A DNA stretch of 12,909 nt from Myxococcales bacterium (GTDB lineage: Bacteria; Myxococcota; Polyangia; Fen-1088): contig PMCR01000589.1 of the NCBI GenBank assembly GCA_003155465.1, forward strand, positions 1 to 12,909, read 5' to 3'. Positions within the stretch are counted from its first letter, which is position 1. Each line of letters opens with the position of its first letter. A program made the translations under genes and the position numbers. Of the stretch, positions 2 through 9,772 are shown in pieces. Under the pieces are notes generated by a model, which made no database searches, was not told the DNA's origin, and saw only the letters and a program-made list of their open reading frames with translations.

Positions 2-1123
2 GTGGCGACCCGATACCGCGTCCTGCTCTTCGCCATGCTCGAATCGGCTGACGAAGCCCGCCACGTGCCCAAGCTGACGCCATTTTGCGAGCGGATCGAG
101 TGGGCCGTGATGCGTGCTGGCTCCGAGATCGAGCGCGCGCGCGACTTCTTGGGACACATTCTGCGTGGTCGGCCGCTGGCCACTTGGCCGTATAGCTCGC
201 GATCCCTGGAAACCAAGCTGCGCGACCTGGTCGGCACCGGCGCCATCCACATCCTTCAGATCGAGCATTCCTTTCTGGCGCCCTTCCGCGATGCTGTGCC
301 CGACGGCTCGCCTTGCCGCACGATCCTTTCGTTCCACAACTTCGGGGAGACCCAGTACCGCAGCATGCTTCACATGCACGCGGGCGCACTGGAGAAGCTG
401 GGCTGGCTGGTCAAGGCGGTCCTCATGCGCGGCTGGGAGGCTCGCCATGCGGCGCGTTTCGACCGTTGTCTGGTGGTCTCGGAAATCGAGGCCGAGCGCC
501 TGCGTGCGGCGGCCGCTGGCACCGCCGTGTCGCTGGTCCCCAACGGTGTAGATACGGCGGCCTTGCGCCCGCTTGCCGAGGCCGCAGCCGGCAAACGGCT
601 GATCTTCGTGGGCCACCTGCGCTACCCGCCCAACATCGACGCGCTTCGTTTTCTCGCGCGCCACATCCTGCCTGCCCTGCGCGCGCGCATCCCCGAAGTC
701 CGCTTGACCGTGGTGGGCGACGGTGCGCCCCGCGCCTTGCGCGAATTTTCCGCACACGACGGCATCGACCTGATCGGCCGCGCTGCCTGTCCCCTTCCCT
801 ACTATCAGAACGCCCATGTCGCGGTTGTGCCCCTGCGCGCAGGCGGGGGCACCCGCCTCAAGATCCTCGAGGCCATGGCGCTCGGGCGGCCGGTGGTTTC
901 CACCCCGCTTGGCTGCGAGGGCCTCGCGGTCGAGAACGGCAAGCACCTGCTCATCGCGAAAGACGCCGAGGGCTTTGCCGCAGCCGTGGCGCGCCTGCTG
1001 ACCGACCGCCATCTCGCCGCCCGCCTGACCCAGGAGGCCCGGGCGCTGGTGGAAAGAGACTACGACTGGACGGCCATTGCAGAACGGCTCCTCTCCGTCT
1101 ACGACGAACTGCTGGCAAGGTGA
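2..1123 (+). CDS. GT-B (GT4-type) glycosyltransferase, exopolysaccharide-associated, 5'-partial
   Basis: This is probably a cytoplasmic or membrane-associated sugar transferase that uses a nucleotide sugar to build a surface polysaccharide or glycolipid. The C-terminal half is a clear GT-B donor-binding domain. It has VPNGVD near residue 179, a FVGHLRYPPNID strand near 202, a VVGDG strand near 238, and the glycine-rich GGGTRLKILEAMALG loop with its conserved Glu near 281-295. The N-terminal half (HVPKLTPFCERIE, then FDRCLVVSEIEAERL) resembles transferases linked to PEP-CTERM/EpsH-type exopolysaccharide systems. Those proteins are about 400 residues long and begin with a strand and a PYPP-like loop. 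Here the frame is open to the left edge, so some 30-40 N-terminal residues are probably missing and the GTG at position 2 is unlikely to be the true start. The last 28 codons are repeated at 3514-3600. The fold is secure; the sugar and acceptor are unknown. Confidence 0.88.
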   Translation: MATRYRVLLFAMLESADEARHVPKLTPFCERIEWAVMRAGSEIERARDFLGHILRGRPLATWPYSSRSLETKLRDLVGTGAIHILQIEHSFLAPFRDAVPDGSPCRTILSFHNFGETQYRSMLHMHAGALEKLGWLVKAVLMRGWEARHAARFDRCLVVSEIEAERLRAAAAGTAVSLVPNGVDTAALRPLAEAAAGKRLIFVGHLRYPPNIDALRFLARHILPALRARIPEVRLTVVGDGAPRALREFSAHDGIDLIGRAACPLPYYQNAHVAVVPLRAGGGTRLKILEAMALGRPVVSTPLGCEGLAVENGKHLLIAKDAEGFAAAVARLLTDRHLAARLTQEARALVERDYDWTAIAERLLSVYDELLAR

Positions 1124-1131
1124 TTCCAAGG
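1037..1131 (+). repeat. 95-bp direct repeat, left copy (3' end of glycosyltransferase gene)
   Basis: This segment matches 3514-3608 at 94 of 95 positions; the only difference is T at 1125 against C at 3602. It starts exactly on a codon boundary at an 8-bp palindrome (GCCCGGGC). It covers the last 28 sense codons and the TGA of the glycosyltransferase, and ends 8 bases past the stop. The flanks diverge at once on both sides (G at 1036 against T at 3513; G at 1132 against A at 3609). The repeats are 2477 bp apart, start to start. This is the arrangement expected of attL/attR-like ends or of a segmental duplication. Confidence 0.97.
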
Positions 1132-1134
1132 GGG

Positions 1135-1176
1135 TCGGGCTGCCCGATCCTTCATGAGAACCGAGTCCCACGGTTC
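1135..1176 (+). terminator. Possible terminator hairpins after the glycosyltransferase gene
   Basis: Two short perfect inverted repeats follow the glycosyltransferase stop. TCGGG/CCCGA lies at 1135-1147 with a 3-base loop. GAACCG/CGGTTC lies at 1158-1176 with a 7-base loop, and CATCATTT follows. The U-tract is poor, so termination is only a suggestion. Both hairpins lie just inside the repeat-bounded block, not in the repeat. Confidence 0.3.
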
Positions 1177-1387
1177 CATCATTTGCCTCGCGGATGTCCA
1201 GCGGCCACACCCCGGACCAGCGCAAACCCTGTTCAGCAAGTAGTTCGATTGGCCAGCCTGGACGGGCCACTCATCGTCCTGGCGCATGCGTTTCTCTACG
1301 GACAGCAGACGTGAGTGCAGCTACGTTTGTGCGTCGAAGGCAGCCCGCCCAACACCGCGTGCATCGGCAACGGCAGCGGATCTTTGT

Positions 1388-1413
1388 GTCAGTAGGCCGG
1401 GATCTCTACTGAC
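1388..1413 (-). terminator. Inverted repeat over the stop codon of the small lipoprotein gene
   Basis: A perfect 8-bp inverted repeat, GTCAGTAG (1388-1395) and CTACTGAC (1406-1413), has a 10-base loop. Read on the minus strand, it includes the last codons and TAG stop of the small lipoprotein gene and would form a hairpin at the transcript's 3' end. No U-run follows it, so it may be a 3' stabilising hairpin or a weak terminator. The rest of 1177-1387 shows no gene, tRNA or other structure that I can support. Confidence 0.4.
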
Positions 1414-1825
1414 TGATGCGGCTTCCGCGCCACGTTCCAGAGGCGCTGCTCACTTGCCAGGTTCCCACCAGGCTGCCGTCGGTCAGAAGCTGTCCCTGGA
1501 ATGATCCGGTGCCACCTGAGTCGAGGACAGAACCAAGGATGACACTGCCATTTGGGTCCGCGGTGCCCGACAGGGTAAACTGGGCGCTGCTGCTGGAGCT
1601 CTTGCCCGACCCGGTCACAAGCCCCTGGAGATCAATCACGACTTCCCAAGTGCCCGCGCCGTCTCCCTTGTAGGTGCCAGCGTAGTTGCCTGCAACGATC
1701 TGCTGACATTCAGCAGTCGTGGTTTCGCATTTGAAGGCTGGCGCGTCTGAGCCACACGCAGAGGGGAGCGTCACCAGCAAGAGGGCAGAGGACAGGACCG
1801 ATGCTAGGCGCCATGAGATGAGCAT
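1406..1825 (-). CDS. Small putative lipoprotein with GTW-type beta repeats
   Basis: The gene encodes a predicted 139-residue lipoprotein of unknown function. I chose the ATG at 1825 because it gives a compact signal peptide: Arg at residue 6, a hydrophobic core, and a lipobox-like LPSAC ending at Cys24. Upstream starts in the same frame (ATG at 1864, GTG at 1900) would put a non-signal-like stretch before it, and the ribosome site before 1825 is weak. After Cys24 the protein has CETTTAEC, then short glycine-punctuated strands: NYAGTYKGDGAGTW, a Ser-rich turn, GSFQGQLLTDGSLVGTW and SGTWRGS. The recurring G-T-W/Y and G-x-x-x-G pattern suggests a small all-beta fold. The gene lies within the repeat-bounded block, in the same direction as the larger lipoprotein gene upstream of it. 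No catalytic motif is visible. Confidence 0.7.
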   Translation of the reverse strand: MLISWRLASVLSSALLLVTLPSACGSDAPAFKCETTTAECQQIVAGNYAGTYKGDGAGTWEVVIDLQGLVTGSGKSSSSSAQFTLSGTADPNGSVILGSVLDSGGTGSFQGQLLTDGSLVGTWQVSSASGTWRGSRISQ

Positions 1826-1944
1826 GGGCCGTTCATAGGAGAGAACCTGCTGAATATCAACCATATTCACCCAGCGTGTTGCCACAGAAGAGAGTCCCAC
1901 CCGCTTGCCTCAAATAGGAATCGCACCCGTTCGGCGCCAGCTCG

Positions 1945-2030
1945 GCGGGTAGGTGCTCGGCGGAGTTTTCGGCAATCGTGAGGACCAGTTGCTCATGAAA
2001 ACTCTGGTACCTACCCCGCACCTACCCCGC
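1945..2030. repeat. Nested inverted repeat between the two lipoprotein genes
   Basis: Two nested perfect inverted repeats fill this gap. The outer arms are GGGTAGGTGC (1947-1956) and GCACCTACCC (2018-2027). The inner arms are GAGTTTTC (1963-1970) and GAAAACTC (1997-2004), around a 26-base loop in which GCAA (1972-1975) and TTGC (1989-1992) can also pair. CTACCCCGC occurs twice in tandem, 11 bases apart, at 2011-2019 and 2022-2030. The structure starts 3 bases past the stop of the Gly-rich lipoprotein gene. It could be a terminator, a transcript-stabilising element or a recombination site. I could not match it to an attC-type consensus. Confidence 0.65.
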
Positions 2031-2032
2031 GC

Positions 2033-3349
2033 TCAAGGTGTCGCGCATTTCCAACCGACACCAGCGACTACTGTGTAAGTCGTGCAGCCGCAAGTACATG
2101 CCTTCCACCCGCCCCCCTCCGGCCACGCGGGCACTTGAGAGGGACTGTGGCAACAGTCGTCGCATTGGTCATAGCGGCACAACTGCCCGCCCGGCGTGCA
2201 CGTGAAACAATAACCATTGTGAGAGTTGCCGCTACAGCAATCGTGGCAATCAGCGAAGACGCAGCGGCTCTTGTCGCTCGTACATGCCTGGCAGGTGAAG
2301 TTTATGCAGAGTTGCATCGCCCCGGGACAGAGGCAGTCACTATTCTTGACGCATTCAACACACTGATGGCCGACTCTATCGGCGTCTGCCGGGGTTAGCC
2401 GACGGCCGGAACCACCCTGGGACGCACAGCAGTCACTACAATCCGCAGTCTTGCAACTGTTTGGGCCCCCATCCCCGCCGCCCCTCGGCGTGCAGGCATT
2501 GCAACTCCCGTCGGCTCCGCAGTAGTACTCCCTCGTGGTGCCGCCGCAGGAAGTGACCGCCGCGTCACTCGGTGGGCCGCCGCATGACACGCCAGCAGCC
2601 CCCGCCGCACCGCTCGAACAGGACGACGTATCGCTGCTGACGAGCGTGCTGCCACCCTGGCCACCGAGATTCCAAGGCGGCGTCTCACCCGTACAGAGTC
2701 CCGCACTCGTCCCGCCCGACCCAGAAACGGTGCCCCCAGTTTCCGACGCCGTCCCGCCCGAGCCTGGGGAACCGCCCACGCCACCGGAGCCAGAGGAACC
2801 TCCGGTGGTTCCAGCGGTGCTGACAGGGGCATCTGCCCCGCCTGTCGCGACGGGCGCATCCGGTACCGACCCTCCTGTGGAATTCGCCCCGCCGGTACCG
2901 GCGATGGTCGAGCCACCCGAGCCCACCGTGGTTGAACGCGAGCCGCCCGAACCGGTTGAGCCGCCACCGCCCACGGAAGCCGCCCCGGCCGTGCCCGGGA
3001 CACCACCGGAGTTTGGGAAGCCGCCCGTCCCCAGCGCGCCTCCCGCGCGGCTACCACCACTGCTCATCGCGGACTCAGAGATTTCACCGCCGCCGCGCGC
3101 GCCACCAGCGCCAGCAGCGGCGTTGCCGCCCGAGCCACCGAGAATTGGGGCATCGCTGGGCGCTCCCCCCAGCGGGGACCCGACGGCTCCACCCGCGACA
3201 GCGCCGCCAGAACCGACGGCACCGCTCGTACGGACGCCTCCGGCCGCACCTCCGGGACCATTGGCACCACCACATCCCACCCCGAGCACAACGAAGAGTC
3301 CCACCCAGCCAAGCCTCAGGGCTAACGACGCTGTTGTAGCAGTTCTCAT
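2033..3349 (-). CDS. Gly/Ser-rich lipoprotein with three cysteine modules at the C-terminus
   Basis: This is a predicted 438-residue surface lipoprotein. The ATG at 3349 follows AAGGA by 6 bases and gives a signal peptide with Arg at residue 2 and a lipobox ending at Cys26 (VLGVGC). The ATG at 3355, two codons earlier, follows GAGGA and is nearly as good. Residues 27-218 are low-complexity Gly/Ser/Ala/Thr sequence with GTGG, GSGG and GGS units, a spacer style common in myxobacterial surface proteins. Residues 219-438 are cysteine-rich. Three modules share the pattern C-x2-C-T...C-x4-C-x-D-C-C, at about residues 283-308, 353-372 and 381-400. A CVECVKNSDCLC segment lies between the first two, and CTCGC is near the end. 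The spacing suggests disulfide-bonded or metal-binding knots outside the cytoplasm. I recognise no named family. The plus-strand Pro-rich frame over the same DNA is its mirror image, not a gene. Confidence 0.82.
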   Translation of the reverse strand: MRTATTASLALRLGWVGLFVVLGVGCGGANGPGGAAGGVRTSGAVGSGGAVAGGAVGSPLGGAPSDAPILGGSGGNAAAGAGGARGGGEISESAMSSGGSRAGGALGTGGFPNSGGVPGTAGAASVGGGGSTGSGGSRSTTVGSGGSTIAGTGGANSTGGSVPDAPVATGGADAPVSTAGTTGGSSGSGGVGGSPGSGGTASETGGTVSGSGGTSAGLCTGETPPWNLGGQGGSTLVSSDTSSCSSGAAGAAGVSCGGPPSDAAVTSCGGTTREYYCGADGSCNACTPRGGGDGGPNSCKTADCSDCCASQGGSGRRLTPADADRVGHQCVECVKNSDCLCPGAMQLCINFTCQACTSDKSRCVFADCHDCCSGNSHNGYCFTCTPGGQLCRYDQCDDCCHSPSQVPAWPEGGGWKACTCGCTTYTVVAGVGWKCATP

Positions 3350-3513
3350 TTCCATTCCTTTCCTCGGCTTGAGTATAGGTCGTTTCAAGCGCCATCTTCC
3401 CTTCACCGGATCGCATCTGCAAGTGCCTGGCGGACAGAGCCCGGGCACTGGGCGTGCGTCTGCGCCCAGTAGCTGAAGCAACAACCGCTGTGCTCAACCC
3501 ACCTTCCTGCAAT

Positions 3514-3600
3514 GCCCGGGCGCTGGTGGAAAGAGACTACGACTGGACGGCCATTGCAGAACGGCTCCTCTCCGTCTACGACGAACTGCTGGCAAGGTGA
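3514..3600 (+). pseudogene. Orphan 3' fragment of the glycosyltransferase gene
   Basis: These 28 codons plus TGA encode the same C-terminal tail as the intact gene (ending YDELLAR), with no base change in the coding part. No start codon or ribosome site precedes the fragment in frame, so it is not expected to be translated. It may be the original gene end that was displaced when the upstream block arrived, or a copy brought in by that block. Perfect coding identity suggests the event was recent or that conversion keeps the copies alike. Confidence 0.9.
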
Positions 3601-3608
3601 TCCCAAGG
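3514..3608 (+). repeat. 95-bp direct repeat, right copy
   Basis: This is the second copy of the glycosyltransferase 3' end, with the single C-for-T difference at 3602, 2 bases past the stop. Sequence left of 3514 is the upstream region of the Gly-rich lipoprotein gene and has no similarity to the glycosyltransferase coding sequence before 1037. Confidence 0.97.
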
Positions 3609-3717
3609 AATCCCGCGGCAAGCGCAGCCAAGCCGCGGGGCACCCAGCAGAAGGCCGTGTTCCAAGACTGAATCGTGACAGTTGGCGCCGGCACGTTCCG
3701 AGGGTAAAGATGCTGGC

Positions 3718-5706
3718 ATGGCGTTTGACGGGCCGCGCCTAAGGCGCGATCTAGTTTCAACCATCTCGCAAGAAGATGGCGTCAGGTACGTCGACGTCCA
3801 CGATCCCAGACGGGGTTCCAGCTTCCGTCTGTTCGACTATGAGTATTCGGTCGCCCTCGCATTTGACGGTAGGCCCCTGGCCAAGGTCATCCCCTGGGTG
3901 CGGCTGTCGACCGGGCTGGAGCTGACGCCGGAACAACTCACGTCGTTCGCCGAACGTCTTGATCAGCTCGGGTTCCTTGCGTCGGACGAGGCGAGCACAC
4001 CGGGGGTCGCGCTGAAGGAGCAGCCGGCTCTGGTTCCGCATCCGTCTGCAGAGGCCCGACACACGCCTTTGCCGGTTTCCGGACTGCTTCCCGAGTCACC
4101 CGCGACTGCGCGAACCCCCGAGCCACTTCCCGAACCGCCCGCGACTGAAAAATCCCCCAGGCCGCTTCCTGAACCAGCCCCGGCGCTCGCGGAAGCGCTT
4201 CCTGCAACGGAATCGCTCCCGGTGACGGCGGAGCAAGCGCCGGAACCAGCCGAGGCAGAAACCGCAGCGACCGAGCCCCTGTCATCAGCCGCGCCGCCCG
4301 CGACCGAGCCGCCCGCCGCCGTGGTGACACCATCGCAGCCCGACAGTCCGTCGCAGGCCCAGCCGCTGCTGCCAGTCACAGACGCGACGCCCCCGCCGGT
4401 CGAGACACCGCTTGCGTCCAGCACGCCGGTGCAGGAGCCGTCGCAGGTTCCACCCGAAACGCGGCCCTCCGCCGTGGCGGACACAGCGCCGTCCCCTCCC
4501 CTCGCAAAGACGCCGCCCCCCCTGCCAGGGCCACGGCCTGCGGACCGGCCGTCCGCGGCCGAAGCGACAGACCGCACCAGCCGGCCACACACCGTCAAGG
4601 GTGGGGCCCGCGGGTCGACGCCGGGGCCGCGTCGGATAGTGACTCCCCCACCGCTTCCAACACCCCCTCCCCTTGTCACGCCGGCACCCTCGCGGTCCAC
4701 GAGGGTGCGCGGCGGCACGTGGATTCTCTACGCTCTGTTCGGCACACTGGCGGCATTGGCCGTTGGGGTGCTCGTGGTGCCGCTGGCGCTCGACCCCCGC
4801 CCACCCGCTGCCGTGCGCGCACGCGTTTCGTTCGCCAGACCCACGGCCGTGGTGCGTTGGTTCGATGCCACCGCGCCGGTGGAGGGGCTGCCCAGCCAGG
4901 TGCTGAGCTTCCCTGCTGGCGGAAAGGTAATCAGGCTGGCGTCCCCAGGGACCTCGCTGCGGCCCGGTGACGTGGTGGCCGCAACCGACGCAGCCCGTCT
5001 GGCGCTGGCCGATCTGGCACGGCAACAAGAACGGCTCGCCTACCGGCAGGAACTCGTGCAAGGCATCGGGGACATGGGCGACGAGTTGCGCGCCGGTGCG
5101 GCCCGGACCAAAGTCGAGTTGAGCGCTGGGTTGATCGAGCGTACCCAGCGGGCTCTGTCACGTGTCGCGGTTGTGGCGGAAGCACCGAACCAGGTCGAGG
5201 CAACTCTGGCCACCCTGGGTCAGACCGTGCGGGCTGGCACGCCGGCGGTGCGCATGCGTAGGGCAGGTTGGCGTGCCAATTTCGAACTGCCGCGTACGCT
5301 GGCCGCGCGGGTTTGGAAGCAAGGCTTCTGTGAGGCCGAGATCGAGGGGCGGCCGGTCGGGTGCGACCTTGTCTCGGACGGCGGCGACGAAACCCACGTG
5401 GTCATTGAGCTGGCGCCCGAAGCAGCCACCGCGGCCGGCCAACCGGCGCGTATGGCGCGCGCGCGTTTTTCCGACGCGTTCCTGGTACCGGCCGCGGCCC
5501 TGTCGCGCGTGGGCCAGAGTGACCGGGTCTTGGTGGTGGCTCCCACTGGTCGGGCCGAGGTACGAAACGTGACGGTGGCGGATCGAACCGCCACCGATGC
5601 CGTCATCACCCAGGGCCTGGATGCCGGCGACGCCGTCATCATCGGGACTTCCGAACCCGTCGGGGCGGGGGCTCGGGTGCGAATCACTAAGGCGACGGGC
5701 GAGTAG
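3718..5706 (+). CDS. Membrane-anchored periplasmic adaptor (HlyD/RND-MFP-like) with PqqD-like N-terminus and Pro-rich linker
   Basis: The gene encodes 662 residues from the ATG at 3718; a GAGGG lies 13 bases upstream. A TTG 12 codons earlier is possible but has no ribosome site. Residues about 10-88 (YVDVHDPRRGSSFRLFDYEY, then LTPEQLTSFAERLDQLGFL) resemble a PqqD-like winged-helix domain, as found at the front of some peptide-export and M50/HlyD proteins. Residues about 95-330 are rich in Pro, Ala, Glu and Thr. One membrane helix spans about 335-358. The periplasmic part shows the first lipoyl half (GGKVIRLASPGTSLRPGDVV, near 401), a helical segment, the second lipoyl half (ATLGQTVRAGTPAVRM, near 500), a beta-barrel-like region, and a membrane-proximal region (VLVVAPTGRAEVRNVTV, then GLDAGDAVIIG). 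An adaptor normally links an inner-membrane pump to an outer-membrane channel, but no pump is in this window. The adaptor call is good; the PqqD-like call is moderate. Confidence 0.75.
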   Translation: MAFDGPRLRRDLVSTISQEDGVRYVDVHDPRRGSSFRLFDYEYSVALAFDGRPLAKVIPWVRLSTGLELTPEQLTSFAERLDQLGFLASDEASTPGVALKEQPALVPHPSAEARHTPLPVSGLLPESPATARTPEPLPEPPATEKSPRPLPEPAPALAEALPATESLPVTAEQAPEPAEAETAATEPLSSAAPPATEPPAAVVTPSQPDSPSQAQPLLPVTDATPPPVETPLASSTPVQEPSQVPPETRPSAVADTAPSPPLAKTPPPLPGPRPADRPSAAEATDRTSRPHTVKGGARGSTPGPRRIVTPPPLPTPPPLVTPAPSRSTRVRGGTWILYALFGTLAALAVGVLVVPLALDPRPPAAVRARVSFARPTAVVRWFDATAPVEGLPSQVLSFPAGGKVIRLASPGTSLRPGDVVAATDAARLALADLARQQERLAYRQELVQGIGDMGDELRAGAARTKVELSAGLIERTQRALSRVAVVAEAPNQVEATLATLGQTVRAGTPAVRMRRAGWRANFELPRTLAARVWKQGFCEAEIEGRPVGCDLVSDGGDETHVVIELAPEAATAAGQPARMARARFSDAFLVPAAALSRVGQSDRVLVVAPTGRAEVRNVTVADRTATDAVITQGLDAGDAVIIGTSEPVGAGARVRITKATGE

Positions 5707-5756
5707 CCATGTCCGGACGAACACCCCCATGGCCAAGACGTGCTAGGTTGAGACCC

Positions 5757-6629
5757 ATGTTCAAGGGAGTCATCACAGCACTGGTCACACCATTTCGCGA
5801 CGACGCCATCGACGAGGAGGCCCTGCGCCGCCTGGTCGACGAGCAGATCCGCGCGGGCATCGACGGATTCGTCCCGGTGGGCACCACCGGCGAATCGCCC
5901 ACGGTCTCGGTGGAGGAGCACATCCGCATCATCAAGATCGTGGTGGAAGAAACCCGCAAGCGCGTGCCGGTCATCGCCGGGACGGGCGCCAACTCGACCC
6001 GCGAAGCCATCGAGCTGACGCGCGAGGCGCGCGCGGTGGGTGCCGACGCAACCCTGCAGGTCACGCCCTACTACAACCGGCCCACCCAGGACGGGCTCTT
6101 CCGTCACTTCAAGGCAATCGCCGATGCGGCCGGGCTGCCCATCGTGGTCTACAACGTGCCCGGGCGCACCGGGTGCGACCTTCTGCCCGAGACCATGGCG
6201 CGCCTGTGCGAGGTGCCGCTGGTTGTGGGCATCAAGGAAGCAACCGGCTCGGCCCAGCGGGCGGCGCAGATCATCTCGCGCGTGGGTGACCGGATGGTGG
6301 TTCTGTCAGGCGATGATGCGACGGCTTTCCCCCTGTACGTGCTGGGCGCGCAAGGCTGCATTTCGGTCGTGTCCAACGTGGCGCCCGCTGAGATGGCGGC
6401 CATGTGGGACGCGGCGACCGCGGGCGACTGGAAGAAAGCCCGCGAGCTGCACTACCGCGTCTTTCCGCTCTCCGAAGGACTGTTCATCGAGGCTAACCCG
6501 ATTCCAGTAAAAACCGCGCTGGCCATGATGGGCAAGATCGCCGAGGAGATCCGCGCGCCGCTCTACCCGATGGCTGGGGCCAATCGCGAGAAGGTGCGCA
6601 GGATTCTCGCTGACCTCAAACTCATCTGA
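5757..6629 (+). CDS. dapA: 4-hydroxy-tetrahydrodipicolinate synthase
   Basis: This cytoplasmic enzyme condenses pyruvate with aspartate semialdehyde, the first committed step to diaminopimelate and lysine. The ATG at 5757 gives 290 residues, the usual family length, beginning MFKGVITALVTPF. A start 16 codons earlier would add an unconserved Arg/Pro-rich leader. Key residues are all present, shifted by one from the E. coli numbering: T43 and T44 in GTTGES, Y106 in TPYYNRPTQDG, Y132 and R137 in YNVPGRTG, and the Schiff-base lysine K160 in GIKEATG. The C-terminal segment with NPIPVKTAL is also typical. It starts 50 bases after the adaptor gene and is followed 10 bases later by dapB, so the two dap genes are surely cotranscribed. 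Confidence 0.97.
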   Translation: MFKGVITALVTPFRDDAIDEEALRRLVDEQIRAGIDGFVPVGTTGESPTVSVEEHIRIIKIVVEETRKRVPVIAGTGANSTREAIELTREARAVGADATLQVTPYYNRPTQDGLFRHFKAIADAAGLPIVVYNVPGRTGCDLLPETMARLCEVPLVVGIKEATGSAQRAAQIISRVGDRMVVLSGDDATAFPLYVLGAQGCISVVSNVAPAEMAAMWDAATAGDWKKARELHYRVFPLSEGLFIEANPIPVKTALAMMGKIAEEIRAPLYPMAGANREKVRRILADLKLI

Positions 6630-6639
6630 CTGGGAAGCC

Positions 6640-7449
6640 ATGGGCGAATCTGTGCGTATTGCTGTATTCGGCGCTGCCGGCAAAATGGGGGGCGCGATCG
6701 TGCGCGCGATTGCCGACACTCCGGCCACTTCCCTGGTGGCGGCGGTCGAGCGTGCCGATTTCCCCGAGTTGGGCGCGGATGCGAGCCGCGTGGCGGGATT
6801 GCCTGAAAGCGGCCTGCGCGTGCAGGCGGACCGGCCCGGCCGGGGTATGGCCGACGTATGGATCGATTTCTCCGCACCCGGCGCCGCCGTGGCCAATGCA
6901 ATAGCCGCGGCCCAGGCTGGCGCCAGCATCGTGATCGGCACCACCGGGATTTCAACCCAGGACAAGGCAGCGATAGCTTCCGAGGCAAAACGAATCCCCA
7001 TTGTGCTGGCGCCCAACATGTCGGTGGGCGTGAACGTGATGCTGCGTTTGGTGGCAGACGCGGCCCGTGCCCTGGGTTCGGCCTACGACATCGAGATCGT
7101 GGAAGCACACCACCGGGCCAAGCGCGACGCGCCCTCGGGCACGGCCCTGCGTCTGGCCGAAGCGGTCGCCGAAGCCACCGGTCGCGATCTCGGGAAGAGT
7201 GCGCGCTACGAGCGGCATGGTGAAATTGGGCCGCGTACTGCCGACGAGATTGGCATCCAGACTGTGCGCGGCGGTGACGTGGTCGGCGACCACACCGTGT
7301 TCTTCCTCGGGCAGGGTGACCGTATCGAAATCACCCACCGGGCCTCGTCGCGCGACACCTTGGCCCGCGGCGCGGTTCGCGCGGCGCTCTGGCTTCACCG
7401 CCGCGCGCCCGGGCTCTACGACATGCGCGACGTGCTGGGGTTGAAGTAG
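6640..7449 (+). CDS. dapB: 4-hydroxy-tetrahydrodipicolinate reductase
   Basis: This cytoplasmic NAD(P)H-dependent reductase works on the product of the preceding enzyme. It is 269 residues long, normal for the family. The Rossmann motif GAAGKMG is at residues 11-17, IDFSAP at 75-80, GTTG at 100-103 and APNMSVGVN at 124-132. The catalytic signature EAHHRAKRDAPSGTA starts at 155, with H157, H158 and K161 matching the E. coli catalytic His and Lys. The C-terminal THRASSRDTLARGAVRAALW helix is also standard. GGGAAG lies just before the ATG, and only 10 bases separate it from dapA. Pathway products feed lysine and, through diaminopimelate, peptidoglycan. Confidence 0.97.
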   Translation: MGESVRIAVFGAAGKMGGAIVRAIADTPATSLVAAVERADFPELGADASRVAGLPESGLRVQADRPGRGMADVWIDFSAPGAAVANAIAAAQAGASIVIGTTGISTQDKAAIASEAKRIPIVLAPNMSVGVNVMLRLVADAARALGSAYDIEIVEAHHRAKRDAPSGTALRLAEAVAEATGRDLGKSARYERHGEIGPRTADEIGIQTVRGGDVVGDHTVFFLGQGDRIEITHRASSRDTLARGAVRAALWLHRRAPGLYDMRDVLGLK

Positions 7450-7498
7450 TTCGCCCGACGAGTCGGACGGTGGGGCGCCCCGCAGGGCCAAGTTGAAA

Positions 7499-7520
7499 AT
7501 CCGCCAGGCAGAGGGCGGAT
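7499..7520 (+). terminator. Hairpin after dapB, possible terminator
   Basis: The perfect 7-bp inverted repeat ATCCGCC (7499-7505) and GGCGGAT (7514-7520) has an 8-base loop and lies 50 bases past the dapB stop, in the 160-bp gap before the next gene. It is followed by CTGTCAGTTCC, not a U-run, so intrinsic termination would be weak. It may separate the dap pair from the next two genes. Confidence 0.35.
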
Positions 7521-7609
7521 CTGTCAGTTCCTCAACACCCGCGGCGCGCTGATGCACGTCTGGCCACGCCCTGGGCGCTGGTCCCGGGTTTGCAAGTTCC
7601 AGCGGTGTG

Positions 7610-8707
7610 ATGCATTCAATTGCGAAAGACTCCAGCAGGCGATTTCGCGGCACGGGTTGGCTAAGCGGGGCTCTGCTCATCGCGGGCATGGCGGCCCTGG
7701 TCCTACTTATGCGGCGGGTTGGCGTAGAACCGGTCCTGCGCGGCATTGAACGGGTTGGGCCCGGATTTCTATTGGTCGTTCTCGCACCGGTTGTAGGAAT
7801 GACTCTGCACTGCTGGGGCTGGCTTGTGCTGCTGCCCAAGTCGCTGCGCCCCCGGCAGGCGATCGCGCTTGCCGCCTACGTGGCCTCCCAGGCCGGTGAC
7901 GAACTGGGCGGTGGGGTGGCAGGCGAGCCGCTCAAGGCGCTAGTGTTTCCGCCCGGCGTGCGCAGCCGCACCCTGGTCGCCCTGGCGCTCGACAATGGTA
8001 CCCACATCGCCGCAACCGCACTCTTGCTGGCCGGCGCGGCGCTGCTCCCCTGGGACTCCACCTCCCTGGTCAGCGCTCGAACTTGTGCCTGGGTGGGCGC
8101 GACCATCCTTGCGGCCGTGCTGCTCGCAGTGCTCATCATCCTCGTCGCCCCGCTGCGCCGGTGGGGCACTGGATCCAGTCGGGCGGCCCGACTCGCGCGC
8201 GGATTGGATGCCTCCCGCGTTGCCTTGCTTTCACAACCGCGGCTCGTGCTGGGCAGCGTGTTGCTTCATCTGGCGGGCAAGCTGTGGATTGTTGCCGAGA
8301 TGGCACTGCTGCTGTTATTGCTCGGGTTGAACCCGGCGCTCGCGCCGTGGCTGGGCGCCGCATCCGTGGTCGCATCCATGCTGGGCGCTGCCATCCCCGG
8401 CCAAATGGGCGCAGTCGAAGCCGCCGTCTTCGCCGCCTGCACCGCTTTGGGTGTGGATGCTCCAACGGCCATGGCCTTGGTTCTGTTGCGCCGGTTGCGA
8501 GGCGGACTCTGGATTGCCCTCGGCCTGATGCTCACCAGAACCGTTCTGGCCCGTGGAAAGGCCTGCCCGGATCTCGCCGAGATCCGTGGTCAGGTACGCC
8601 AGCCCCTGAGGACTGGCCGGCGATCGGTCGGTCTCGCCGACTTCGCGACGAGATCCGCTCCGTCCACTCTGCGAGTCCGGCCGGTCTTGAATACCCCCTG
8701 GGGCTAG
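7610..8707 (+). CDS. UPF0104 / lysylphosphatidylglycerol-synthase-type transmembrane flippase-like protein
   Basis: This is an integral inner-membrane protein of about 365 residues with roughly eight hydrophobic helices. The layout matches the UPF0104 family, which is the membrane part of MprF-type proteins and is also found in HpnL and AglD relatives. The family's conserved polar loops are recognisable: GGGVAGEPLKALVF (about residue 100), IPGQMGAVEAAV (about 262) and LRRLRGGLWIALG (about 295). The cytoplasmic lysyl-transfer domain of full MprF is absent, so the protein is a translocase or scaffold, not an aminoacyl-lipid synthase. The ATG at 7610 follows an in-frame GTG at 7607; neither has a strong ribosome site. 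The last 45 residues are hydrophilic and Arg-rich. The next gene starts 39 bases downstream, suggesting joint transcription. The lipid substrate cannot be told from the sequence. Confidence 0.8.
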   Translation: MHSIAKDSSRRFRGTGWLSGALLIAGMAALVLLMRRVGVEPVLRGIERVGPGFLLVVLAPVVGMTLHCWGWLVLLPKSLRPRQAIALAAYVASQAGDELGGGVAGEPLKALVFPPGVRSRTLVALALDNGTHIAATALLLAGAALLPWDSTSLVSARTCAWVGATILAAVLLAVLIILVAPLRRWGTGSSRAARLARGLDASRVALLSQPRLVLGSVLLHLAGKLWIVAEMALLLLLLGLNPALAPWLGAASVVASMLGAAIPGQMGAVEAAVFAACTALGVDAPTAMALVLLRRLRGGLWIALGLMLTRTVLARGKACPDLAEIRGQVRQPLRTGRRSVGLADFATRSAPSTLRVRPVLNTPWG

Positions 8708-8746: not shown

Positions 8747-9772
8747 ATGGCAATCTCCGCTCGGTCACCCTACCTGCCCACCTTGATCGGCCTTGGGTTC
8801 GCGGCCTCGGTCGGCCTGACGCTTTTCCCCCAGATCGGATGCAAATCATCCCGTCCCCTCCCGACGGCGAAAGCGCCCCCGACGGCGAATGGGCTCCCGG
8901 AAGAGTCCGAGGCAGCGGCAACCATCTCTCCGCCACCAAGCCCAGCGTCCCCCCAGCCCACCATCGCCTGCGCGGCGAACCAGGTGCCCATCCCTGGCGG
9001 GACGTTCTGGCTGGGAGACGAAGAGATCGGCCGGCACGCACACCAGGTGACCTTGGCACCCTACTGCATGGACAAGACCGAAGTGACCGTCGCTGCCTTC
9101 CGTGCCTGCGTGCAGGCACACAAATGCCGACCCCCCAGCGCAACCGTCGATTGGAAGGGCATCACGCCAAAAGATAAGGCGAAATGGAGCCAGTTCTGCA
9201 ATTGGGGAAAACGCGGCTTCGACCAGCACCCCATGAACTGCGTGGATTGGGATCAGGCGACTGAGTATTGCGCAGCGACCGGTGGTCGCCTACCTACTGA
9301 GGACGAGTGGGAATATGCGGCCTGCGGCAACGATGATCGCATTTTCCCCTGGGGCAAGCAGCCGCCGGACGTGACCAGACTGAATGCCTGCGGCGGCGAG
9401 TGCGCATCAATGGCAAAAGAACGCTTTGATGAGAACTGGGAAACCATGTACACGGGCGACGACGGCTGGACATCCACATCACCGGTGGGCAACTATCCCA
9501 AAGGCGCCAGTCCCTTCGGCATTCTGGACATGGCGGGCAACGTCTGGGAATGGACGGTTGATATCTTCTCCGTCAATGACCAGGGGCCGGGAGATAGCCC
9601 GCGGGGACCCCAGCCCAATACGCCGTACCGCACGATCCGGGGCGGCGGCTGGAACAGCAACGCCGCAGCCAGGGTCCGCACGGCCTCCGCCGACGGAAAC
9701 GGCCCTGATAGCCGCAACTTCTCTGTCGGTTTCCGCTGCGCACGTGGGGTGAAGAACTCTGACGGGACCTAG
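8747..9772 (+). CDS. Formylglycine-generating-enzyme-fold (SUMF1-like) lipoprotein lacking catalytic cysteines
   Basis: The 341-residue protein begins with a hydrophobic segment ending at Cys32 (PQIGC), a loose lipobox, then a Pro/Ala/Thr-rich linker to about residue 77. Residues 80-335 are an FGE-sulfatase domain: VPIPGGTFWLGD (80-91), VTLAPYCMDKTEVTVAAFRAC (101-121), HPMNCVDWDQATEYC (161-175), GGRLPTEDEWEYAA (179-192), SPFGILDMAGNVWEW (255-269), RTIRGGGW (295-302) and VGFRCAR (327-333). In true formylglycine-generating enzymes two cysteines follow the RGGSW motif. Here S304 and R309 occupy those places, so sulfatase activation is unlikely. Eleven cysteines after the linker start suggest disulfides outside the cytoplasm. 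Many bacterial relatives are binding or scaffold proteins, and that is the best guess here. The stop overlaps that of the converging gene. Confidence 0.88.
   Translation: MAISARSPYLPTLIGLGFAASVGLTLFPQIGCKSSRPLPTAKAPPTANGLPEESEAAATISPPPSPASPQPTIACAANQVPIPGGTFWLGDEEIGRHAHQVTLAPYCMDKTEVTVAAFRACVQAHKCRPPSATVDWKGITPKDKAKWSQFCNWGKRGFDQHPMNCVDWDQATEYCAATGGRLPTEDEWEYAACGNDDRIFPWGKQPPDVTRLNACGGECASMAKERFDENWETMYTGDDGWTSTSPVGNYPKGASPFGILDMAGNVWEWTVDIFSVNDQGPGDSPRGPQPNTPYRTIRGGGWNSNAAARVRTASADGNGPDSRNFSVGFRCARGVKNSDGT

Follow-up and report, generated by a model that had tools for sequence, protein, structure and literature searches.

The 12,909-bp stretch examined here, contig PMCR01000589.1 of a Myxococcales bacterium (GenBank assembly GCA_003155465.1; hereafter the window), carries the 3' end of a glycosyltransferase (GT) gene twice, with a 2382-bp block lying between the two copies. 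The full-length GT comprises 408 amino acids (database protein P0001), of which the window lacks the first ~35 codons. The duplicated gene tail is most likely a recombination scar rather than a pair of attachment (att) sites for a mobile element. The locus is organized as follows, with positions numbered from the first base of the window.

2-1123, forward strand: group 1 GT, 3' 373 codons, complete at its 3' end and starting upstream of the window (Pfam Glyco_trans_1_4, 9.7e-30, and others)
1037-1131, forward strand: R1, the GT 3' end, 87 coding bases including the stop plus 8 bp (repeat search and alignment)
1132-3513, no strand: inserted block of 2382 bp that the GT gaps of six relatives lack
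3514-3608, forward strand: R2, partial second GT 3' end on the right-flank side (repeat search and alignment)
3682-3720, forward strand: conserved block TTGGC...GGGTAAAGATGC...ATG at the right edge of the variable gap, common to seven loci, putative promoter
3718-5706, forward strand: downstream flank gene, no family in the Pfam scan, conserved in synteny in 6/6 relatives
5709-6629, forward strand: dapA, right flank (DHDPS, 2.9e-99), syntenic in 6/6 relatives
6640-7449, forward strand: dapB, right flank (DapB_N/DapB_C), syntenic in 6/6 relatives

A repeat search of the 12.9-kb window identified R1 and R2 as direct repeats of 95 nt with 99% identity (94/95) and a spacing of 2477 bp. The sole mismatch, T/C at repeat position 89, falls on the second base past the stop codon, while the coding part is identical at 87 of 87 bases, TGA included; R2 translates as ARALVERDYDWTAIAERLLSVYDELLAR followed by a stop. 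A chance origin is excluded, since the next-longest exact direct repeat in the window measures 13 bp. Repeat search and alignment agree in these figures with the first-pass annotation of the window, which had reported the 94/95 recurrence with all coding bases identical; its statements that the host GT is complete at its 3' end, with the stop codon kept in R1, and that the intervening genes (1406-1825 and 2033 to ~3349) both run opposite to the GT are likewise borne out. Judging from the assembly, both copies are presumably present in the host genome. Hairpins following R1 and R2 do not rise above shuffled sequences (z of -0.42 and -0.39). Alignment of the DNA after R1 or after R2 to the gap DNA of relatives returned nothing significant (lowest shuffle fraction 0.083), so that it is the position of R2 beside the conserved block which suggests that R2 keeps the native downstream side. 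By eye, a 13-base stretch at 3439-3451 (GCCCGGGCACTGG), 75 bp before R2, resembles the start of R2 at 12 of 13 bases; it may be a tiny GT remnant or a product of chance.

The GT belongs to a tight protein group (P0002-P0027, 81-88% identity) and was recovered at E 1e-100 in only 6 of the 18 genomes searched from the family of genome G001. A contig scan gave nine GT loci; the six at 84-88% identity (L001-L005 and L009) were used for comparison and the three distant ones were dropped. All six come from metagenome-assembled genomes (MAGs) designated 'Myxococcales bacterium isolate fen', and each shows one gene order after the GT, with the shared downstream gene and then dapA and dapB. The distance from the GT alignment to that of the downstream gene varies widely: 1 bp in L002, 156 bp in L001 and 291 bp in L003, against ~2.55 kb in the window, 3.6 kb in L009, 4.1 kb in L004 and 5.1 kb in L005. 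L002, with a single base between the two alignments, provides the empty site that the first-pass annotation had proposed to seek in relatives. The GT stop of L002 is the TGA of TGACAGTTGGC; the window, L003 and L004 also have TGACAGTTGGC ahead of their downstream gene. At the right edge of the gap, all seven loci share a block with an invariant TTGGC and GGGTAAAGATGC just ahead of the start codon; we read this block as a putative promoter, although a sigma-70 scan did not call it. As one relative has an empty gap, two have short ones, and the window and the remaining three hold cargo that differs from one to the next, these data support the interval after the GT as a site of DNA insertion. Because the gap spans the distance between two constrained edges, the GT stop and the conserved block, the placement of insertions right at the GT end requires no site-specific enzyme.

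The contents of the kilobase-sized gaps are distinct. L004 encodes a YidD-like, a PIN-domain and a weakly TPR-like protein together with one of no family; L005 carries a CarboxypepD_reg protein, a DUF362 protein and a piece of an Lcl_C gene; L009 has an RCC1-repeat protein and two proteins without a family. The proteins of the window insert found no tblastn match in the loci of the six relatives. The prediction that different cargo would occupy the same site holds for L004, L005 and L009, but the accompanying prediction that the same repeats would bound it does not, as the GT-end repeat is found at the right edge in none of these three. When each gap was compared by BLAST with the locus it belongs to, other host-derived pieces came to light instead. 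In the L005 gap there are three, at 14150-14249 (piece A; 100 bp, 88% identity to its own GT), 15707-15765 (59 bp, 90%) and 16160-16211 (52 bp, 85%), which derive in that order from GT bases 274-374, 608-667 and 82-137; the L004 gap holds one, at 7023-7073 (51 bp, 92%), whose source lies just upstream of the GT. Together with the 87-bp piece of the window, all five host-derived pieces at the site are in direct orientation, while source position and length differ between the relatives' pieces, showing that the junctions are variable and not conserved. Piece A is 88.7% identical to the GT of L001, 88.0% to its own and 87.5% to that of L004 (81.7-88.7% across all seven GTs), and since it is no closer to its own GT than to that of L001 it must be old. 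From 15707 onward the L005 gap is a patchwork in which at most six bases separate successive segments: a GT piece, a repeat also present on two other contigs, the Lcl_C piece (316 bp, 78% identical to an Lcl_C gene elsewhere), a second GT piece and a many-copy repeat. The same search found no host-gene piece in the GT gaps of L001 and L003. Elsewhere in L003, two variable kilobase-sized gaps (4680-8430 and 672-2588) match each other and both contain Gly-rich lipoprotein-like genes; they have no flank duplications.

A parallel to the GT site is found at a kinase locus. Genome G006 has a direct duplication (435/432 bp, 92.9%) that comprises the terminal 289 bp of a Pkinase gene and 143 bp beyond it, with a ~6-kb TetR/OEP/HlyD/MacB block between the copies. 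In G005 the flanks of this locus are contiguous around a single copy, constituting an empty site, and the flank alignments lie 29-47 bp apart in G001, G002, G003 and contig C224 of G004. The partial copy of G006 also ends in 38 bp from the 5' part of the kinase (97%), and contig C202 of G004 has its junction between kinase and cargo at the same place as G006, with at least 447 bp of kinase left. We take this 5' remnant, and the longer kinase piece at the shared junction, as evidence that the partial copy in G006 is probably the remnant of a longer one that has been cut down by erosion.

The kinase pair was one of several that emerged when 776 kb of sequence (the window together with contigs of G003-G006, L001, L002 and L004) was compared with itself; 29 of 35 repeat pairs were low-copy, as judged within the sampled contigs, and 25 of these 29 were direct. 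Among low-copy pairs more than 1 kb apart, 20 were direct (five at the GT site, with several others at one locus) and four inverted. On gene calls made by crude scoring of open reading frames (ORFs), four pairs besides that of the window include a gene 3' end in a copy: the kinase on contig C117 of G006, an HrpB-like helicase on C224 of G006 (80 bp plus 10 bp, Pfam HrpB_C), a predicted 1292-aa gene on C99 of G003 (a 457-bp tail) and a MerR/TPR gene on C163 of G006. Relatives offer partial or rearranged pictures of a pair on C327 of G006 and of the 1463/7975 pair on C163 of the same genome, and C163 holds a further low-copy pair at 68961/73245. On contig C236 of G004, positions 1858-2878 and 7476-8497 form a 1022-bp direct repeat (94%) of the 3' part of an HrpB-like gene, the copies ~4.6 kb apart.

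The block between R1 and R2 contains two genes and three short dispersed repeats.

1406-1825, reverse strand: small lipoprotein-like gene, 139 aa from an ATG at 1825 (ORF list)
2033-3349, reverse strand: Gly/Ser-rich, Cys-rich lipoprotein-like gene of about 438 aa (ORF list; lipobox by eye)
1262-1343, no strand: dispersed repeat family F1, with matches in 6/6 relatives' genomes
1965-2032, no strand: dispersed repeat family F2, with matches in relatives' genomes
3371-3425, no strand: dispersed repeat family F3, imperfectly palindromic around the core TTTTGCAGATGCGATTCGGTGAAGGCAAAATGGCGCTT and matched 25 times across six related genomes

Both genes have lipoprotein-type N-termini by eye, and their starts, of which that at 3349 is approximate, were assigned by inspection of ORFs. 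A protein search with the smaller product returned only the window's own protein; the larger has only two partial homologues in a search that scored the 7993 candidates sharing most words. No Pfam family, and hence no recombinase or transposase family, was detected in the two genes or in eight further ORFs (at least 80 aa) overlapping the insert, and the two genes gave no PHROGs family. The DNA from 1037 to 3608 has no match in plasmid and phage collections; 11 stretches of viral contigs fit a pattern for the small lipoprotein, of which none was confirmed, and an Rfam scan of the window was without match. Compared with the genomes of the six relatives, the insert DNA gives only short matches, which resolve into F1-F3 besides a few weak ones. 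One F2 copy in G001 lies just upstream of a Y1_Tnp-like gene (21.8 bits, below the Pfam cut-off of 23), and the gene beside an F1 copy in G002 belongs to no family. With F1-F3 inside the insert, a REP/RAYT-mobilised element, placed there by a Y1 transposase and its terminal repeats, may be considered. Two other repeats are widespread in these genomes. A very abundant repeat of ~80-90 bp, 86-95% identical, occurs on C117 of G006 (9578-9662 and 15968-16049) and on many contigs of G001-G005, with more than 100 matches in five genomes among the matches listed. The many-copy repeat at 16218-16300 of L005, also present in L052 and L056, lies by eye in frame inside predicted coding genes (TPFGGFGTDSPPHQPPRA) and is reminiscent of palindromic elements inserted in proteins.

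The explanation that we favor, with a probability of roughly 0.6, is a non-site-specific duplicative insertion followed by decay of the redundant GT copy. The gap from the GT stop to the promoter-like block would tolerate insertions, and differing DNA would have been captured there in the window and in three relatives. In the window the capture would have been duplicative, with foreign DNA placed beside the GT by non-site-specific recombination; this may have proceeded through a single crossover with a joined or circular molecule that bore the GT end, through homology-facilitated illegitimate recombination (HFIR) in which a sister chromosome took part, or through template switching during repair. 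Each may yield the same end product, in which the GT is complete and the cargo is followed by an incomplete GT copy next to the original downstream DNA, and the three are inseparable by sequence alone. Ku is encoded in all six relatives, and end joining is therefore possible. The partial copies, being redundant, would then decay by deletion, so that R2 may once have been longer and L005, L004 and the G006 kinase locus would represent later stages, while selection would keep the GT and the downstream promoter intact.

Several observations weigh against this explanation. The L009 gap contains no piece of a host gene by BLAST against its own locus, and the nine other gap segments tested in these loci are likewise free of sequence from their flanking genes. 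In a second self-comparison, of 771 kb of G003 at the same thresholds, 13 of 35 pairs were low-copy and those more than 1 kb apart comprised one direct and four inverted; the excess of direct pairs did not replicate, and a genus-wide excess of direct local duplications is not claimed. At the kinase locus an abundant dispersed repeat forms part of the duplicated sequence, and C202 of G004 could be mis-binned, its kinase 3' part being 84% like C224 of the same MAG and its 5' part 98% like C170. The flanks of the HrpB pair in G006 are not adjacent in relatives, so that this pair is not a simple insertion. A search of the six relatives for a ComEC-like domain gave no direct evidence for competence: the domain is present in all six but also in E. 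coli, and is not diagnostic. Finally, the complete identity of R1 and R2 over 87 bp requires that the event was recent or that gene conversion has acted.

A tandem duplication of the GT that preceded the cargo, in an ancestor of the window, L004, L005 and L009, with later cargo landing in and eroding the spare copy and R2 as its remnant, is the alternative that survives best, though we consider it unlikely. A tree of the GT with dapA-dapB (rooted by midpoint only) places the four loci that have kilobase-sized cargo together on the same side of a split supported at 81/83, which speaks for this alternative, as do the age of piece A and the direct orientation of every piece. Yet the GT of the window differs by ~15% from those of L004, L005 and L009, and the perfect coding identity of R2 would then demand later gene conversion; the order of the pieces in L005 further calls for more than one spare copy or for rearrangement. 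The first-pass annotation had read R1 and R2 as attL and attR of a site-specific integrative cassette, to which a cassette mobilized in trans may be added. The topology fits, with an intact host gene end, a short direct repeat and an insert between, and an empty site exists in L002. The repeat is nonetheless missing from the three other kilobase-sized gaps, the insert encodes no recombinase family (an enzyme encoded elsewhere might act in trans) and lacks plasmid or phage matches, the duplicated pieces vary in place and size, and the edges of the gap are those of the GT stop and the conserved block; repeats extending differently in each strain, which the annotation itself had set against its proposal, are what L005 and L004 display, with pieces of 100, 59, 52 and 51 bp from different positions. 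We consider this reading improbable. Just as improbable is an assembly artefact in which a single contig was built from the GT tails of two strains, the one continuing into cargo and the other into the flank: it is favored by the fact that the six relatives are MAGs and by the T/C difference past the stop, as might exist between two strains, but the window contains no N, a similar architecture exists at the G006 kinase locus with copies already 7% diverged, and a graph assembler requires reads joining the cargo end to R2.

The arrangement of the window resembles the products of several known processes. In Campbell-type insertion-duplication, a circle bearing the 3' end of a gene integrates so that the gene stays complete and the cargo is followed by a partial 3' copy that continues into the original downstream DNA. 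The end product is the same as in the window, for which no circular donor was seen. Integrative elements in gene 3' ends (att-flanked islands and cis-mobilizable elements) also repeat the gene tail on both sides of the insert and leave the host gene intact; they differ from the window in that no integrase was found in its insert and that other cargo at the site is not bordered by the repeat. HFIR, a process of transformation or conjugation, is known chiefly for insertion-deletions. Like HFIR, the window would have foreign DNA beside a homologous stretch and one illegitimate junction, but its target gene is whole and the tail duplicated. A study of Vibrio type VI secretion system loci invokes HFIR, qualified by a 'perhaps', to account for displaced immunity genes and gene 3' ends (PMC5361080). 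In Streptococcus pneumoniae, according to a report on transformation-induced merodiploidy, sister-chromatid recombination yields intact and cassette-bearing copies of the target, and one merodiploid clone has a 3,276-bp duplication without flanking repeats (PMC3784515). As described there, these duplications are much larger than the 95 bp seen in the window, which is from an uncultured lineage, and their main class is bordered by insertion sequence repeats.

How bacteria acquire kilobase-sized cargo between housekeeping genes when no mobile element is evident is difficult to observe as it happens, and the main value of this locus is that its relatives show the site empty, filled and, as read here, eroded. 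Partial copies that differ in age but share an orthologous gap, with a parallel that has its own empty site, make insertion, duplication and erosion testable in close strains. The locus also cautions that gene-end repeats flanking cargo need not be att sites. We raise tentatively, as a doubtful proposition, that this lineage has a general route of gene capture which sets genes for secreted proteins and lipoproteins behind the ends of housekeeping genes, leaving a decaying direct partial duplication of the host gene. If that were true, eroded gene tails would form a readable fossil record of past insertions made without integrases or transposons.

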